From Nitrospiraceae bacterium (lineage in GTDB: Bacteria > Nitrospirota > Nitrospiria > Nitrospirales > Nitrospiraceae): DNA of 64,000 bases. Both the position numbers and the translations under genes were made by a program. The DNA lies in the NCBI GenBank assembly GCA_019637075.1, contig JAHBWI010000005.1:124001-188000 (forward strand), read 5' to 3'. Positions 4,580 to 63,051 of the stretch are shown piece after piece (within the stretch, counting starts at the first letter, position 1; every line of letters begins with the position of its first letter). The notes beneath the pieces are model-generated. The model searched no databases and was not told the DNA's origin. It worked only from the letters and a program-made list of their open reading frames with translations.

Positions 4580-5818
4580 TCAAGCAGCCATGCCGACAGA
4601 TTTCTTAGACAGAAGTTCCAGCGTACGTGTCGTTGCCGTTTCCCACGAAAACCATTCCTCGGCAAATCGTATTGCGCCCGCCGTCAATCGAGATCTCATC
4701 TCGCGATCATCCATGAGGTTGAGGAGATGGCCGGCGACAGCTTCAACGTCTCGAGGTTCGCACGTGAGCACATTTCCGCCGTCCAGAAAAACCGTGTCCA
4801 TCATGGGGCCGCGTGTAACAATCGTGGGCAAGCCATGCGCCATAATTGAAGCAAATGAGCTATTGTTCAGCTGCACCCCCTCCAGAAACGGGAGCACACA
4901 CGCATCCGAAGCGTAGAGGTATTGCGAGGCTTCCTCCTCTTCAGACTTGAAGGCCCCGGTCCAGATGGTTTTTCCCTCGATGCCTAATTCTTTGGCCAGA
5001 GCTTGCATTTCCTCGAAATAAGACGAGCCTCCGGCCACGTCCAGACCAACTTTTCCGCCAATGAATAGCAATCTTGCCTGAGGCCGTTGTGAGGCGACTT
5101 TAGCGAACGCACGCAGCAAGGTATCAACACCCTTGATCGGATAGAGATACCCAAAGAAACTTACCACGAAGTTGTCAGAGGACAGACCTAGCTTAGCCCG
5201 CCCCTTCACTCTTGCCTCGTCGTTCACGTTGGGCGCAATACGAAGGTTCGGCGGAGGAGGAATCAAAGCGGTCTTACTCCTGACGGGGGGCCATTCTTCC
5301 ACCATCATTGATTGATGGCGTTCGCAGAGAGCCACCACTGCATCACTATCCCGAAGCAAAGTGCCCGAACTGTAGGCGACATCCTTTCCGCCGGCCCATC
5401 GGACCATGAACTTTCTAAATGCTCGCGAGAGGAGCCCCCACCTAGATGGATCCGCTCCGACAAATGCACTTTCATACCGAGTCACAACCGGAATATGCGG
5501 CCAGATTCGTTTGCAAAGAGTTGGAGCGAAGGTCACCATCGGGTGATAGTGATACATCAAGCCGATATACATGATGAATACGGCATCAGGCGAACAGGAC
5601 TTAAGTTCTGTCCGCAAGCGAAGCATCTCAGCCCAATCCCAATCTCGCATAACCGGATGCACATGAATCTCTGAATCGCCCAGCCCCACATTGTCCCTGG
5701 AGGTAAGGACATGCACCTCAACCCCACGTTGTGCCAGCTTCTTGCACAAATGGTAGGTGTTGGTGGCCTCGCCGGCATGCATGGGCGGATATGCCGCAGA
5801 AATAACAAGAATTTTCAT
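4580..5818 (-). CDS. Glycosyltransferase family 4
   Basis: The 412-residue protein begins MKILVISAAYPPMHAGEATN, a GT-B N-terminus of the GT4 type. FFGYLYPIKGVDTLLRAF marks the start of the donor domain. The donor-binding segment reads FLEGVQLNNSSFASIMAHGLP: the first acidic residue of the EX7E motif is present but the second is replaced, which occurs in some GT4 subgroups. It should act in the cytoplasm on the lipid-linked glycan. The start at 5818 is chosen from the family N-terminus and avoids overlap with the upstream epimerase gene that ends at 5871. Confidence 0.88.
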   Translation of the reverse strand: MKILVISAAYPPMHAGEATNTYHLCKKLAQRGVEVHVLTSRDNVGLGDSEIHVHPVMRDWDWAEMLRLRTELKSCSPDAVFIMYIGLMYHYHPMVTFAPTLCKRIWPHIPVVTRYESAFVGADPSRWGLLSRAFRKFMVRWAGGKDVAYSSGTLLRDSDAVVALCERHQSMMVEEWPPVRSKTALIPPPPNLRIAPNVNDEARVKGRAKLGLSSDNFVVSFFGYLYPIKGVDTLLRAFAKVASQRPQARLLFIGGKVGLDVAGGSSYFEEMQALAKELGIEGKTIWTGAFKSEEEEASQYLYASDACVLPFLEGVQLNNSSFASIMAHGLPTIVTRGPMMDTVFLDGGNVLTCEPRDVEAVAGHLLNLMDDREMRSRLTAGAIRFAEEWFSWETATTRTLELLSKKSVGMAA

Positions 5819-45130: not shown

Positions 45131-45233
45131 TTCATGCTCTCATTTCTGCAAGGATGTTCACCATGGTCTTCCCACAAGGCCGCAGAAAGCCCGGCGACCG
45201 AGAACGCAGTGGGAAGCCATATTCAACATTCGG

Positions 45234-47066
45234 CTACTCCACCGTCACACTCTTCGCGAGGTTTCGCGGCTGATCCACATCCTCGCCGCGCAACACGGCA
45301 ATGTGGTAGGCCAGCAACTGCAATGGAATCGTGAACAGAATCGGCGACAGCAACGGATGCACGTCCGGAATCGTGAACACCGCGTCGGCGGTCTTGCCGA
45401 GTTCCCGCTCGCCTTCAGCCACAAACGCAATCACCGGCGCGCGGCGAGCCTTCACTTCCATCAGGTTACTGACCGTCTTTTCATACAACCGATCCCGCGG
45501 CGCCAGCACCACGACCGGCATGTCCTTATCGATGAGCGCGATCGGACCGTGCTTCATCTCCCCCGCCGCATAGCCCTCGGCGTGGATGTACGAGATCTCC
45601 TTCAGCTTGAGCGCCCCTTCAAGCGCGATCGGATAGTTGATCCCACGCCCCAGGTATAAAAAGTTCGGCTTTTTATAATAGCGCTTGGCGATCGCCAGAA
45701 TCTCGGCTTCCCGTCCGAGCACGTTCTTGACCAAGGTCGGCAAAGTCACGAGCCGATCGAGCCAGGCCTTGCCGTCCGCCACCGTGAGGGTGCCGCGCAC
45801 GCGGCCAAGGTGGAGTGCGAGCAGATAGAGCGCCGCGAGCTGGCTGGTGAAGGCCTTCGTGGAGGCCACACCGATCTCGGGTCCGCAATGGGTGTACAGC
45901 ACACCGTGCGACTCGCGAGCGAGGGTGCTGCCCACGACATTGACGATCGACACGACACGTGCGCCCTTCTCTTTCGCTTCGCGCGCTGCGGCCAGGGTAT
46001 CCGCCGTCTCGCCCGACTGCGAAATCGTCACGAACAAGTCGTTCTTCTCGATCAATGGGTCGCGGTACCGGAACTCCGACCCGATGTCGACCTGGACCGG
46101 CGTGCGGACCATTTCTTCCAGCAGATACTTCCCGACCAGGCCGGCATGCCAACTCGTACCGCAGGCCACGATCCAAATTCGCCCGACCTCGGCAAACTGC
46201 TTCGGCGTCAACCCAATGTCCGGAAGATCCGCCTCACCGCTGTCATACGAGTAGCGGCCGCGCATCGTATCGAGAATGGTCTGCGGCTGCTCGTGGATTT
46301 CTTTCAACATGAAATGCGGATAGCCGCTCTTCTCGGCCGCCGAGGCGTCCCACGTCACCTTGGATTTCTTCCGCGTCACAGGCCGGCCTTCGATGTCGGT
46401 GTACTTGATGTCCGACGACGTCACTTCCGCCACGTCGCCTTCCTCGAGGAAGGTCACGTCCCGCGTATAGGACAACATCGCCATCACATCGGAGCCGACG
46501 AACGAGGAATCCGAGGTCCGGCCGATGACCAAGGGACAGCCTGACCGCGCCGCAACCAGCAAGCCCGGTTCGCGCTCGGAGATCACCGTGATCGCGTAGC
46601 TGCCGCGGATCTCCTTCGCTGCGGCGCGCACGGCGTCCGCCAGATGCAGGCCCTTCTTCTGGATGTACTTGTCGATCAGATGCGCCACCACCTCGGTGTC
46701 GGTCTCGGACTGAAACTTGTACCCATCCTTCTGCAGTTGCTGCTTGAGCTGGACATAGTTTTCGATGATGCCGTTGTGGACCAGCGTGCAGCTCTCCGAG
46801 CGATGCGGATGCGCATTCTGCTCGGAAGGCTTGCCGTGGGTCGCCCAGCGCGTATGGCCGATCCCGCAGGTTCCGGTGATGGATTTCTGCGCGAGCGACT
46901 TCTGCAGATTGACCAGTTTGCCCACGCTGCGGCGGATCTCGATCTTCTCGCCCCGCTGCACCGCCACGCCCGCCGAGTCATAGCCGCGGTACTCCAGCTT
47001 CGACAAGCCGTTCAGCAGAATCGGAACCGCTTCCTGATTGCCCACGTACCCAACGATTCCACACAT
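45234..47066 (-). CDS. glmS: Glutamine-fructose-6-phosphate aminotransferase (isomerizing)
   Basis: The 610-residue enzyme begins MCGIVGYVGNQEAVPIL; Cys2 becomes the N-terminal nucleophile. GHTRWATHGKPSEQNAHPH completes the glutaminase domain. Two SIS domains follow, with VACGTSWHAGLVGKYLLEE and SQSGETADTLAAAREAKEKG. The end DQPRNLAKSVTVE is the classical C-terminal tail. It makes glucosamine 6-phosphate. It lies 9 bp after glmU, which acts later in the same pathway. Confidence 0.97.
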   Translation of the reverse strand: MCGIVGYVGNQEAVPILLNGLSKLEYRGYDSAGVAVQRGEKIEIRRSVGKLVNLQKSLAQKSITGTCGIGHTRWATHGKPSEQNAHPHRSESCTLVHNGIIENYVQLKQQLQKDGYKFQSETDTEVVAHLIDKYIQKKGLHLADAVRAAAKEIRGSYAITVISEREPGLLVAARSGCPLVIGRTSDSSFVGSDVMAMLSYTRDVTFLEEGDVAEVTSSDIKYTDIEGRPVTRKKSKVTWDASAAEKSGYPHFMLKEIHEQPQTILDTMRGRYSYDSGEADLPDIGLTPKQFAEVGRIWIVACGTSWHAGLVGKYLLEEMVRTPVQVDIGSEFRYRDPLIEKNDLFVTISQSGETADTLAAAREAKEKGARVVSIVNVVGSTLARESHGVLYTHCGPEIGVASTKAFTSQLAALYLLALHLGRVRGTLTVADGKAWLDRLVTLPTLVKNVLGREAEILAIAKRYYKKPNFLYLGRGINYPIALEGALKLKEISYIHAEGYAAGEMKHGPIALIDKDMPVVVLAPRDRLYEKTVSNLMEVKARRAPVIAFVAEGERELGKTADAVFTIPDVHPLLSPILFTIPLQLLAYHIAVLRGEDVDQPRNLAKSVTVE

Positions 47067-57285: not shown

Positions 57286-57315
57286 TTTTCAGCCATCGTG
57301 CCGGCCGGGTACAAT
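57286..57315 (+). promoter_or_regulatory. Promoter predicted to give a leaderless cobW-type mRNA
   Basis: TTTTCA (57286-57291) and TACAAT (57310-57315) are 18 bp apart. The ATG of the CobW gene begins 7 bases after the last T of the -10 box, so transcription could start on the A of the ATG. Confidence 0.45.
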
Positions 57316-57321
57316 AGCCCG

Positions 57322-58287
57322 ATGGAACAGATGTCGCCCGTCCCGTTTTACATGCTCTGCGGATCGCTGGGAGCCGGCAAGACCACCCTGCTCATGCGGC
57401 TGCTCGAGTATTGGAACGGGCAAGGCCATACAGTCGGCGTGCTGATGAACGAGGCCGGGCAAGTCAGTATCGACGGGCCTCGAGCCGGTACGTTGGCGGA
57501 GCAGGTGTTGAATCTGGCCGGCGGCTGCATCTGTTGCGACACCAAGGACGACCTCGCCTGGAGCATCGCCCAGCTGGTGCAAGACTACAAGTCGAGCCTG
57601 ATCGTGCTGGAGTGTTCCGGCATGGCGGACCCGGCGGAGGTCGTGGATGCCGTGACCGATGCTTACGTCTCGCGGATGGCGAAGCTCGAACGCATCCTGG
57701 CGCTGGTCCATCCGGTGCCGCTACCGGACAGCGGCCAGGCCGAGGTCGTAACCAAAAACGCGATCCGTTACGCCGACGACCTGATCCTCAACAAACGCGA
57801 CCTGTACATCCCCGGCCATTGGGAACAGTTTCGCGACAGCATCCTCCGGCAGAACCCTTATAGTCGGCTCTGGGAAACCAGCCACGCCCGTGTGGACGTC
57901 GCAGCGCTCTTGAGCGGTCCTGCGATGAGGCCCAAACCCACGAACGTAACATTCGGCGGCAAGCCGGACCTCCTTGCGGACTCGCACCAACGAGCATCCC
58001 ACCACCCTCTGGTCACGACGGTGACACTCCCCACCCCGCTCGACCGGGAACGCTTTACGAAATGGATGGCGGAGCTGCCGGAGGGACTGGAGCGGGCGAA
58101 GGGATTTTTTCGATTTGCGAAAGAACCGGAGCTGCAGGAGTTTCAGTTCTCACGACCGCGCGTGAGTACCGTTGAGCCGGTCATGCTGCTGGACGAGCCG
58201 CCTCACGCCATCGTGCTCATCGGCCGAGGCTTCGACCATGACGGCTGCAGGCGAGGACTACTCGACTGCCTCACCACCCTTTCCTAA
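57322..58287 (+). CDS. CobW/COG0523 family GTPase
   Basis: The 321-residue protein has MLCGSLGAGKTTLLMRLLE (P-loop) and GGCICCDTKDDL, the CxCC metal motif. LECSGMADPAEVVDAV and LILNKRDLY complete the G domain. The C-terminal CobW domain is degenerate. It is thought to pass a metal, usually zinc, to a client protein. No ribosome site precedes the ATG at 57322. It lies after the CDF exporter gene and upstream of repeat-rich DNA. Confidence 0.9.
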   Translation: MEQMSPVPFYMLCGSLGAGKTTLLMRLLEYWNGQGHTVGVLMNEAGQVSIDGPRAGTLAEQVLNLAGGCICCDTKDDLAWSIAQLVQDYKSSLIVLECSGMADPAEVVDAVTDAYVSRMAKLERILALVHPVPLPDSGQAEVVTKNAIRYADDLILNKRDLYIPGHWEQFRDSILRQNPYSRLWETSHARVDVAALLSGPAMRPKPTNVTFGGKPDLLADSHQRASHHPLVTTVTLPTPLDRERFTKWMAELPEGLERAKGFFRFAKEPELQEFQFSRPRVSTVEPVMLLDEPPHAIVLIGRGFDHDGCRRGLLDCLTTLS

Positions 58288-58441
58288 CGGGCTGTTGAAA
58301 CAGTCCGCCAGCTACGAGCCACGGTCGACGAGACAGGCGATCAACCGAAGGCAGCACCACAGCGGCAACTGCTAACAGTGAAGACTCGAGAATCGAATAC
58401 GCTTTACGAGGTACGAGCTACGGCCGATACGCATGCTCGAC
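58288..58441. repeat. Repeat-rich intergenic stretch between cobW-type and PAP2 genes
   Basis: No gene is seen. GGGCTGTTGAAACAGTCCGC near 58290 resembles the edge of interspersed repeats seen in some Nitrospirota. TACGAGCCACGGTCGA (58313-58328) and TACGAGCTACGGCCGA (58412-58427) form a 14-of-16 direct repeat. The two flanking genes are convergent. Confidence 0.5.
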
Positions 58442-60242: not shown

Positions 60243-60501
60243 ATCCTACTCCATCAAATCAGAGTTGCTCAAACGGAGGCGCCAGAATTTCAATTGCTCA
60301 GCCCACATGCCACTGAGACCTCTTGCAGCGCACTCAAAGAGACCGTCGAAAAAGACGATATCTTTCGCCGTCGGCACAGATACCCAACAAGGTTGTCCGG
60401 CAAGAGCGCAGGGCACTCGGCGACTGAGGCGTACCCTTGCGGTACGTCGCAGGGAGACAAGTGCCTGAGAACGCCGCTGGCAACCTTGTTCGGCATCTGA
60501 C
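60243..60501. other. Intergenic region containing a 105-bp nested palindrome
   Basis: No gene is seen between the TonB-C-like gene and the receptor gene. The region is mostly occupied by the inverted repeat at 60386-60490 described separately. Confidence 0.5.
60386..60490. repeat. Nested palindromic repeat (REP/MITE-like)
   Basis: Four pairs of arms nest in order: AACAAGGTTG/CAACCTTGTT (60386-60395, 60481-60490), GGCACT/AGTGCC (60412-60417, 60460-60465), GCGAC/GTCGC (60420-60424, 60446-60450) and GTACC/GGTAC (60431-60435, 60441-60445). It has no coding frame. It may fold as a cruciform in DNA or a long hairpin in RNA. It resembles palindromic interspersed repeats of Nitrospirota. Confidence 0.75.
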
Positions 60502-62946
60502 TTAAAAGAACCACTGGCCGCGGAAGAAGAACGACCTCGGCATCCCCGCATGGGCCACACCGAGCCCGATACTCCCTTCCCCTTGGTTGATGAAGTACTT
60601 CTGGTCCAACAGATTGATAATGTCGAACCCCAGCAGAAACTTCTGTCCTTCCCAGGGCAACGGAACTACATGTGCGATCGACAGATTGTAGATCGTGTAC
60701 GAAGGGCTATGCGTGCTGTTCGTCTTGGCCTCCGCGTCGGCCGCGGTGCGCAATCCCGAGGCATACAGCATCTGCCCTGTGACCGTCGTCCGTTCCAGGA
60801 ACCGGTAGGTAACGATCGCCGAGCTCGTAAGGGTCTGCATATGGTCGCAAAACACCCCGCCCTTGCTGCCAATGTCGGCGATTTCCTTCGCCTCCAAGAG
60901 GAAATGGCCGGACTGCAGACCATAGCCTTTGCATTGACCCCAGGCGACGTTGCCGCGCGCCGTGAGATTGTCCGTTACTTGCAGCTTCAAGGCGCCGTCG
61001 ATTCCGCGTTGCCACCCGCGCTCGAACGCAAAGTAGTTCAGGAGCGGAGTCGTGCCGAACTGACCGGCATCGGATAGAAAGTTGCTAAGCTTGTACCACC
61101 CGGTCAATTCGAGCGTGGCGAAGCGGGTGAGCGCGTGGTAGCTGCCGACCTCAAAATAGTGCGCCCGCTCGGCCCTGACCGTGTTGTTGGTGACATCTTC
61201 CGGCTGCGCCCTCGTCCCGATCGTGTTGAGTTTGGCAAACGAGATGGCTTCCAGGTTCGGCGGCGTAAACATGCGCCCGTAAAATGCATGGAACACGTTC
61301 GACTGGTTGTATTTGTAGGTCGCACCGACGCGCGGGCTGATCTGGCCTTCGTTCCGCAAATACTGCACCGCGTCACCCCGGACGCCGAGATTGAACGTCC
61401 ACTGCTCAGTGGGACTCCATTGGTCCTGGATCCAGAATTCCTGCCGATAGCCGATTTGGCGATTGTCGGCGTTGAGGTTGAGCAGATCGCCTGTGGGATT
61501 GCCGACGCTGTCGTCAGCGAAAGTGAACAGCCGCGTCTTGTTGACCGCCTGCGTCCGTTCGATCTGGAAGCCCGCCTTGATCAGGTGCTCCTTGCTATGG
61601 ACATAGGTGTGGTCGAGGCGAATGCCCGCAGAATAGGCGTTACGATCTTGATCCGCGGCCGAAAAGGGTTCCGCGGGATCAGCCGTGTAGGCCAGCACGT
61701 TCAACGGATCAGTCTTGAACGTGGCACGCGTGTGCCGCATATAGCCGGCCAGACTGAAGAAGTTACTGGCGTTCACGTCGTGCCGCCACACCATGTGGCC
61801 ATATTGGTTGTTCTCCTTCTGGAACTCATTGATCGCCTGGGACGCCACCGGCGTAAAGCCCGGACGGGTTGCCTGCAGCAACGGCAGCATCTGTCCGCTG
61901 GGATCGAGCCCCAGCGCCGGATTGGTCGGTATTTGATATTTGGCAACGGAGTTCAGAAACAGCCAGGTCACGCTGTTCTTGTTGTCATGTTGATAGTCGC
62001 CGCGAATGAACGTTTGGTTCCGCTCGCTCTGGCCGTGGAAGATCGAATGTCCGAGCGTCGGCGGCTCGATCCCGCGATTCGTCGCCGTATGGCTGTTCAG
62101 GATGTAGAAGCGGAACTTTTCGCCAACCGTACCGCCATATTCGAACGATGGGTTGATCGTCTGATTCGATCCCCCCATCATCTGCACCGATCCAAAGGAA
62201 GGCTTGCTCCCGCTCTTCGTGGTGATGTCCAGTACCGCTGCGGTCTTATTCCCATACTGGGCCTCCATCCCGCCCAGGATAATGTCCGCCCGTTCCCAGG
62301 CTCGCGGGGAGATGACGTCGGAGAAGGTCGAAGAGACCGTCTCGGGAATCGGCACGCCGTCCACGCGAAGCTGGAGGTTTGCATGGTCCTGCCGAAGGTG
62401 CACCTGCTTCAACGACCCATACACGGCACCAGGCACCGTCGCCAGGACATCCTGCAACTCGACGTTGTTGCCGCGCGGCAGAGCTTCGATCTCCTTCCGG
62501 CCGAGGGCGTAGGTTTCGCTCGAAACCTTATATTGAATCGGCGCCAGCGGCGAACGAATCTCCAGCGCGATCTCCTTGGTCTTCGAGAGCGTCAGCTTGA
62601 CGGAAGCCGGAGGGTCCTCCCCGATTCGGATCACGACGTACTCGCTGCGATAGGGGTCCTGCCCGGCGCTGACCGAGTAGGTACCATCCTCCGGCGCAGT
62701 CAGGACAAACCCACCGGCCGAGTTGGATACCGTACTCGCCACTGTGTTCCCTTCCTGATCCCTCAGTTCAACGATCGCCTGCGGCACTGCTCGAAGATCT
62801 TGATGCTGGACGGTCCCGACAATGGTCCGCGCCGCCGGACCGGATTGGGCCGGCTGTTGCGCCATCCCCTCTGATGGCACGACTGGCAAACTTCCCAGCC
62901 CCAATACGAGTAGGCAAGTCCTGACGAGACTGACAACGCGAGGCAT
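60502..62946 (-). CDS. TonB-dependent outer-membrane receptor with carboxypeptidase-like N-terminal domain
   Basis: From the ATG at 62946 (GGGGAGGAG upstream) the product is 814 residues. It has a signal peptide with LVLGLGSLPVVPSEG, then a carboxypeptidase regulatory-like domain (GTVQHQDLRAVPQAIVEL), a plug with LEIRSPLAPIQYKV and NVELQDVLATVPG, and a 22-strand-like barrel ending RSFFFRGQWFF. No classical TonB box is obvious. It should take up a large or scarce ligand. The substrate is not visible; His-rich neighbours suggest a metal or metal complex. Confidence 0.9.
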   Translation of the reverse strand: MPRVVSLVRTCLLVLGLGSLPVVPSEGMAQQPAQSGPAARTIVGTVQHQDLRAVPQAIVELRDQEGNTVASTVSNSAGGFVLTAPEDGTYSVSAGQDPYRSEYVVIRIGEDPPASVKLTLSKTKEIALEIRSPLAPIQYKVSSETYALGRKEIEALPRGNNVELQDVLATVPGAVYGSLKQVHLRQDHANLQLRVDGVPIPETVSSTFSDVISPRAWERADIILGGMEAQYGNKTAAVLDITTKSGSKPSFGSVQMMGGSNQTINPSFEYGGTVGEKFRFYILNSHTATNRGIEPPTLGHSIFHGQSERNQTFIRGDYQHDNKNSVTWLFLNSVAKYQIPTNPALGLDPSGQMLPLLQATRPGFTPVASQAINEFQKENNQYGHMVWRHDVNASNFFSLAGYMRHTRATFKTDPLNVLAYTADPAEPFSAADQDRNAYSAGIRLDHTYVHSKEHLIKAGFQIERTQAVNKTRLFTFADDSVGNPTGDLLNLNADNRQIGYRQEFWIQDQWSPTEQWTFNLGVRGDAVQYLRNEGQISPRVGATYKYNQSNVFHAFYGRMFTPPNLEAISFAKLNTIGTRAQPEDVTNNTVRAERAHYFEVGSYHALTRFATLELTGWYKLSNFLSDAGQFGTTPLLNYFAFERGWQRGIDGALKLQVTDNLTARGNVAWGQCKGYGLQSGHFLLEAKEIADIGSKGGVFCDHMQTLTSSAIVTYRFLERTTVTGQMLYASGLRTAADAEAKTNSTHSPSYTIYNLSIAHVVPLPWEGQKFLLGFDIINLLDQKYFINQGEGSIGLGVAHAGMPRSFFFRGQWFF

Positions 62947-63051
62947 GCACTCCTCCCCACAAATTCCATAACGGCTCTCCGCACCAAGGCCAAGCCCGGG
63001 ACGACGCCGATCCACACACAGTTTCATCAATTGTGAGAAACGCCGCGGAAC

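Follow-up and report, generated by a model that had tools for sequence, protein, structure and literature searches.

The 64,000-nucleotide stretch of Nitrospiraceae DNA analysed here, referred to below as the window, contains a long nested palindrome between the 3′ end of a gene for a TonB-dependent receptor (60502–63030, minus strand; Pfam PF00593, PF07715 and PF13620) and a short TonB_C-like gene on the same strand. A first-pass annotation had placed the palindrome at 60386–60490 and suggested that it could be a mobile repeat of the REP or MITE type or a structured RNA, naming a genome-wide repeat search and folding as checks. The question is which of these it is. The perfectly complementary 10-bp outer arms of that description (AACAAGGTTG/CAACCTTGTT, 60386–60395 and 60481–60490) were found as given, and the symmetry extends outward into 19-nt arms (60377–60395 and 60481–60499) that are 89% complementary. 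The covariance model of the family (R1, see below) sets somewhat wider ends, at 60375–60501, where the element abuts the stop codon TAA of the receptor gene (60502–60504). The model matches this focal copy on the plus strand (116.6 bits, E = 8.5e-31), while the element is read here on the minus strand, in the same direction as its host gene, and represents the hairpin part of a longer unit. Its predicted fold is far better than that of shuffled sequences on both strands, with −63.4 kcal/mol on the plus strand (z −5.9) and −66.4 kcal/mol on the minus strand (z −6.8), and none of 200 shuffles was as good in either case.

The palindrome is not a single-copy feature. BLAST searches revealed diverged copies, as relatives of 125 bp, in its own genome and in 26 of 41 related genomes. 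The model R1, built from an alignment (A1) of 33 full copies, detects 45 copies in the own genome (4.06 Mb) at E < 0.001. In a phylum-wide sample of 80 genomes it matches 33, with copy counts that are lower bounds (43 candidates per genome scored). An exact-pattern scan of GTDB genomes gave at least 120 stretches, and the records listed are named Nitrospira, Nitrospirae, Nitrospirota or a family or order thereof, with the sole exception of one labelled 'uncultured Nitrosospira NOB2'. A distant blastn search of phage and plasmid collections with one copy as query gave no match, and no description of this Nitrospirota family was found in the papers searched. Ten genomes of another family of the phylum carry 7 to 32 weaker R1 matches each, which are read as a distantly related sister family.

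These copies also bear on another reading of the locus, a chance palindrome or an ordinary intrinsic terminator unique to the receptor gene. The arms do resemble a terminator in their A and T runs and in their position beside a stop codon, but the approximately 45 homologous copies in the genome refute this reading, and the folding z of about −6 and the terminal repeats and duplications described below leave it practically no probability. A separate terminator-like hairpin with a run of five T residues lies just past the element (60354–60369, minus strand), at a shuffle chance rate of 0.6 per region, and is missing from the corresponding site of two related genomes (G005 and G001) in the alignment. 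A terminator-consensus scan of the focal site flags this neighbouring hairpin and nothing else. Because it comes after the element, the element need not itself be the terminator here.

The window holds three copies of the element, and each begins right where a gene's stop codon ends or overlaps it. The second, of 86 bp and lacking the apical hairpin, lies at 45149–45234 on the minus strand (R1 63.8 bits, E = 7e-16), directly after the stop codon TAG (45234–45236) of a glmS-like gene (45234–47066, minus strand) whose product ends in SVTVE*. Of the third, 25 nt of the stop-side end remain (CGGGCTGTTGAAACAGTCCGCCAGC; 58288–58312, plus strand; 33.6 bits), and they directly follow the TAA of a cobW-like gene with a CobW/HypB/UreG domain (57298–58287, plus strand; Pfam PF02492 and PF07683). 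The suspicion that a fragment near 58290 was debris of a related element proved correct, as GGGCTGTTGAAACAGTCCGC at 58289–58308, taken together with its flanks (58288–58312), is the best outer-end match in the window, and none of about 128,000 background positions on both strands is as good.

In the reading direction of the host gene, the stop codon is followed by an outer arm (CAGGATGCTGAAAAAG..CCGCCAGC), an internal loop with two boxes (CGTTCTCG and CTGCGGCCTTGCTGG), a variable stem, an apical stem of the form GTAC-loop-GTAC, and the returning arm (..CTTTTTGAGCATCCTGC). The GTACC-loop-GGTAC hairpin within the focal palindrome is this conserved apical stem. Many copies run on into a tail of about 80 bp that ends in TTTTTCCGCAGCCTG, where the stop-side end recurs in inverted orientation, so that the unit is bounded by terminal inverted repeats (TIRs), CAGGATGC(T/G)GAAAAA ... 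TTTTTCCGCAGCCTG. Among 25 tailed copies the mean identity is 81% in the hairpin and 42% in the tail, and in older copies the hairpin of approximately 125 bp is kept as the 85-bp tail decays. A hairpin-only form that moves as a separate unit was considered and rejected; its far end lacks a duplication (identical 4-mers in 0 of 106), and the form is therefore read as a decayed long form. Inward TIR pairs at spacings of about 200 to 440 bp on eight contigs of one related genome (G017) probably represent several related MITE subfamilies.

The hairpin is supported by extensive covariation. Twenty-six of its 37 pairs vary on both sides, with 148 both-sided cells compared to 44 in shuffles, and 93% of the cells are paired versus 33–41% with a shifted partner. 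In 103 of 112 copies the better fold belongs to the strand antisense to the host gene, a preference shared by the rare wobble pairs (51 to 22, in cells that are not independent of one another); part of the strand bias may be inherited from the founder sequence. Because the better-folding strand is the antisense one, a simple sense-strand terminator fits poorly. A structured RNA, the other possibility raised in the first-pass annotation, is thus backed by strong covariation and is possible as a secondary role, though neither the window region nor an intact copy matched any Rfam covariance model at E ≤ 1.

The mobile origin of the family is most clearly seen in the complete genome of Candidatus Nitrospira defluvii (4,317,083 bases; FP929003.1), which contains nine near-identical copies of 199 bp between their flanks, with TIRs of approximately 15 bp. 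All nine are flanked by matching 4-bp sequences of the form NTAG (in sense orientation CTAG, TTAG, CTAG, TTAG, TTAG, ATAG, TTAG, CTAG and GTAG). Compared with the IS5-type pattern YTAR, seven of these duplications read YTAG and the other two ATAG and GTAG. The trace persists in the diverged tailed copies of the GTDB set, where flanking 4-mers are identical in 16 of 39 cases, re-pairing giving an expectation of 9.8 (p = 0.0015), and one copy of the own genome has TTAA on either side. In the N. defluvii stretch 1804000–1814000 (positions 5320–5645), a recent intact copy has landed 127 bp beyond an old one located at a stop codon. The element is short and without coding capacity, occurs in many dispersed copies, and has TIRs and a target-site duplication of constant length; with TIRs of about 15 bp and matching duplications in nine of nine recent copies, it is a miniature inverted-repeat transposable element (MITE). 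The suggestion of a dispersed mobile repeat with conserved arms is borne out in its MITE version.

The REP version fares differently. A repeat of the REP/REPIN type, mobilised by a RAYT (Y1 HUH transposase), would likewise be palindromic, abundant and located near gene 3′ ends, and the terminus of GTAG REPs often supplies a TAG stop (PMC3733652). However, no Y1_Tnp domain (PF01797) was detected in the own genome (G000) or in the copy-rich genomes G004 and G009, the duplications occur at both ends where single-strand transposition gives none, and a 199-bp element with TIRs contrasts with a hairpin of 20–40 bp on a GTAG/GTGG foot that lacks a duplication. A RAYT partner is therefore highly improbable.

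A search for the transposase that mobilises the MITE returned no partner. Neither Y1/RAYT nor IS5-type or IS701-type transposases were found in the own genome; DDE_Tnp_1, DUF772 and DDE_5 were absent both there and from the copy-rich G009; and in the genomes searched none of these domains, Y1_Tnp included, occurred in an autonomous partner with the same ends. The IS5, IS1182 and IS701 transposase genes of relatives lack matching flanking TIRs, save for one weak, decayed DUF772 locus in G005 that was judged unconvincing. The IS5-like multi-copy element of G024 was discarded as a source of the TIRs, since its ends (GGGAAGATCTGATTAATTC) differ. Candidate autonomous copies, in the form of inward TIR pairs 0.6–3.5 kb apart, proved to enclose host genes between two separate elements, and about 0.5 Mb of N. 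defluvii sequence, when read through, showed no autonomous copy. We infer DDE-type mobilisation from the TIRs and the duplication.

In 100 of 191 copies, which were collected through conserved patterns, the stop codon of an open reading frame with a coding score lies 4 to 6 nt ahead of the hairpin core. Measured from the GGATG anchor, the offset is −5 in 77 copies, −4 in 14 and −6 in nine, while any other offset within 60 nt has zero to five stops. Stops at −5 in the GTDB set are mostly TAG, followed by TAA, and rarely TGA. The stop-side end lies within 3 nt of a stop in 31 of 49 copies of the own genome, and the other end in one of 49. The neighbouring genes of the own-genome copies are arranged in tandem in 34 cases and converge in 10, with no divergent pair, compared to 78 tandem, 15 convergent and 16 divergent among spacers from 20 stretches of the same genome. 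As the docking counts depend on pattern-selected copies, an unselected N. defluvii sample of 371 kb was added; nine of its 14 hits meet a stop with their stop-side end, no hit does so with the opposite end, and no hit falls inside an open reading frame. The gene calls behind all these counts come from our own codon-score script rather than a published gene finder.

The nine recent N. defluvii copies present a different picture. Four touch a stop codon and five lie in spacers, and contact is made by the hairpin end in one and by the other end in three, whereas old copies touch stops almost exclusively by the hairpin end. These numbers, small as they are, would fit insertion at NTAG in either orientation followed by preferential survival of the arrangement with the hairpin at the stop. 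A preference for TAG in front of the element persists in copies without a gene end (in the GTDB set, 27 of 74), which indicates that NTAR itself, rather than the stop codon, is the target. TGA stops at −4 do occur in the own genome and its relatives, and these do not fit NTAR.

A site directly behind a stop codon, with a better-folding antisense strand and a variable apical region, also recalls the attC recombination sites of integron gene cassettes, which act as a folded bottom strand directly after the stop. But the genes alongside are core genes (glmS, the TonB receptor), no RYYYAAC/GTTRRRY core boxes are apparent by inspection, and the copies have two TIRs and 4-bp duplications; an attC-like origin is scarcely credible.

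Comparison of individual sites among relatives reveals different histories. The glmS product ends in SVTVE* in all 29 relatives read. An element or its remnant follows the gene in six genomes (the own genome, G017, G022, G014, G003 and, in a collapsed form, G001), all with TAG as the stop, and is absent from 23, in which the stop is TAG, TAA or TGA. In the collapsed form at the glmS 3′ end of G001, TAGTGGGATGTTGAACATCCC, the outer arms seem to be fused to each other, as though the inner hairpin had been excised or deleted. At the receptor site, the focal copy is common to three genera (own, G005 and G001). The element is 83% (G005) and 77% (G001) identical to the focal copy, a long aligned block consisting mostly of the gene is 73% and 68% identical, and the spacer beyond cannot be aligned. 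In these comparisons the hairpin is retained to a degree not seen in the adjoining spacer. A copy of the focal subtype also occurs in N. defluvii, after an open reading frame that ends in the same codons.

Retention at one site in three genera, together with a conserved internal loop (AAGGCCGCAG/CGAGAAC), covariation, and an antisense strand that folds better and carries the rare wobble pairs, could instead describe an ancient 3′-end RNA element, that is, a terminator, stabiliser or protein-binding site that was spread by past transposition, is no longer mobile in most lineages and is now maintained mainly by selection. Its functional form would then be the antisense strand, either as RNA or as single-stranded DNA. 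Against it stand the intact recent copies with duplications in N. defluvii and the possible contribution of the founder sequence to the strand bias. We regard this reading as possible but unlikely.

Among known systems, IS5/IS701-type MITEs are one of the closest, being small, gene-free elements with TIRs and a 4-bp duplication; a YTAR duplication is on record for IS5 insertions (PMC10359306) and a duplication of exactly four bp for IS701 insertions (PMC2266710). Unlike these, the present element has a large hairpin on one TIR and long-lived copies exactly at stop codons, and its own genome holds no IS5, DUF772 or DDE_5 transposase. The enterobacterial ERIC/IRU and YPAL elements, of 127 and 168 bp, are also non-autonomous, palindromic and intergenic, have no known transposase and are said to fold in mRNA (PMC2759123, PMC3733652), but they duplicate TA instead of NTAR and differ in sequence and hosts, and exact stop-codon docking does not figure in the passages of these descriptions consulted. 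GTAG REPs are likewise palindromic and lie mostly between tandem and convergent genes, near 3′ ends, with the TAG of their terminus often serving as the stop (PMC3733652). They are, however, RAYT-moved, tagged hairpins of 20–40 bp. The 3′-end barrier favoured below as a role of the retained hairpin is drawn by analogy with proposals made for REPs and enterobacterial MITEs (PMC3733652, PMC2759123). The element described here is thus a new MITE family with an IS5-like target, set apart by its stop-codon docking and large one-sided hairpin.

Taken together, the palindrome very probably belongs to a non-autonomous DDE-type MITE of Nitrospirota that docks at stop codons and whose hairpin is retained as a likely mRNA 3′ end. 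The intact element of about 199 bp consists of a stop-side TIR folded back into a hairpin of approximately 121 bp, a tail of about 80 bp, and the second TIR. Its insertion at NTAR, mostly YTAG or YTAA, with duplication of 4 bp, would be the work of a transposase acting in trans. Most targets within genes would be lethal or costly, but a TAG or TAA stop, being restored by the duplication, would be tolerated, and survivors would therefore gather at stop codons and in spacers; survivorship is thus the presumed cause of the placement. With time the tail would decay and stop-adjacent hairpins would be retained, most likely as a ready-made mRNA 3′ end that forms a barrier to read-through and exonucleases.

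A more far-reaching idea, rather improbable at present, is that the transposon family gave Nitrospirota a stop-docked 3′-end module in an estimated ~100 genes per genome in copy-rich species, and that a putative host factor binds the loop AAGGCCGCAG/CGAGAAC, as antisense RNA or single-stranded DNA, to form a post-transcriptional regulon. Nitrospira are key nitrifiers and difficult to manipulate. For annotators, these stop-side repeats are neither genes nor RAYT repeats. Fresh and old copies stand side by side in this family, where a transposon whose target resembles a stop codon comes to form the 3′ ends of host genes time and again, and the step from parasite to part of a 3′-UTR becomes directly testable.
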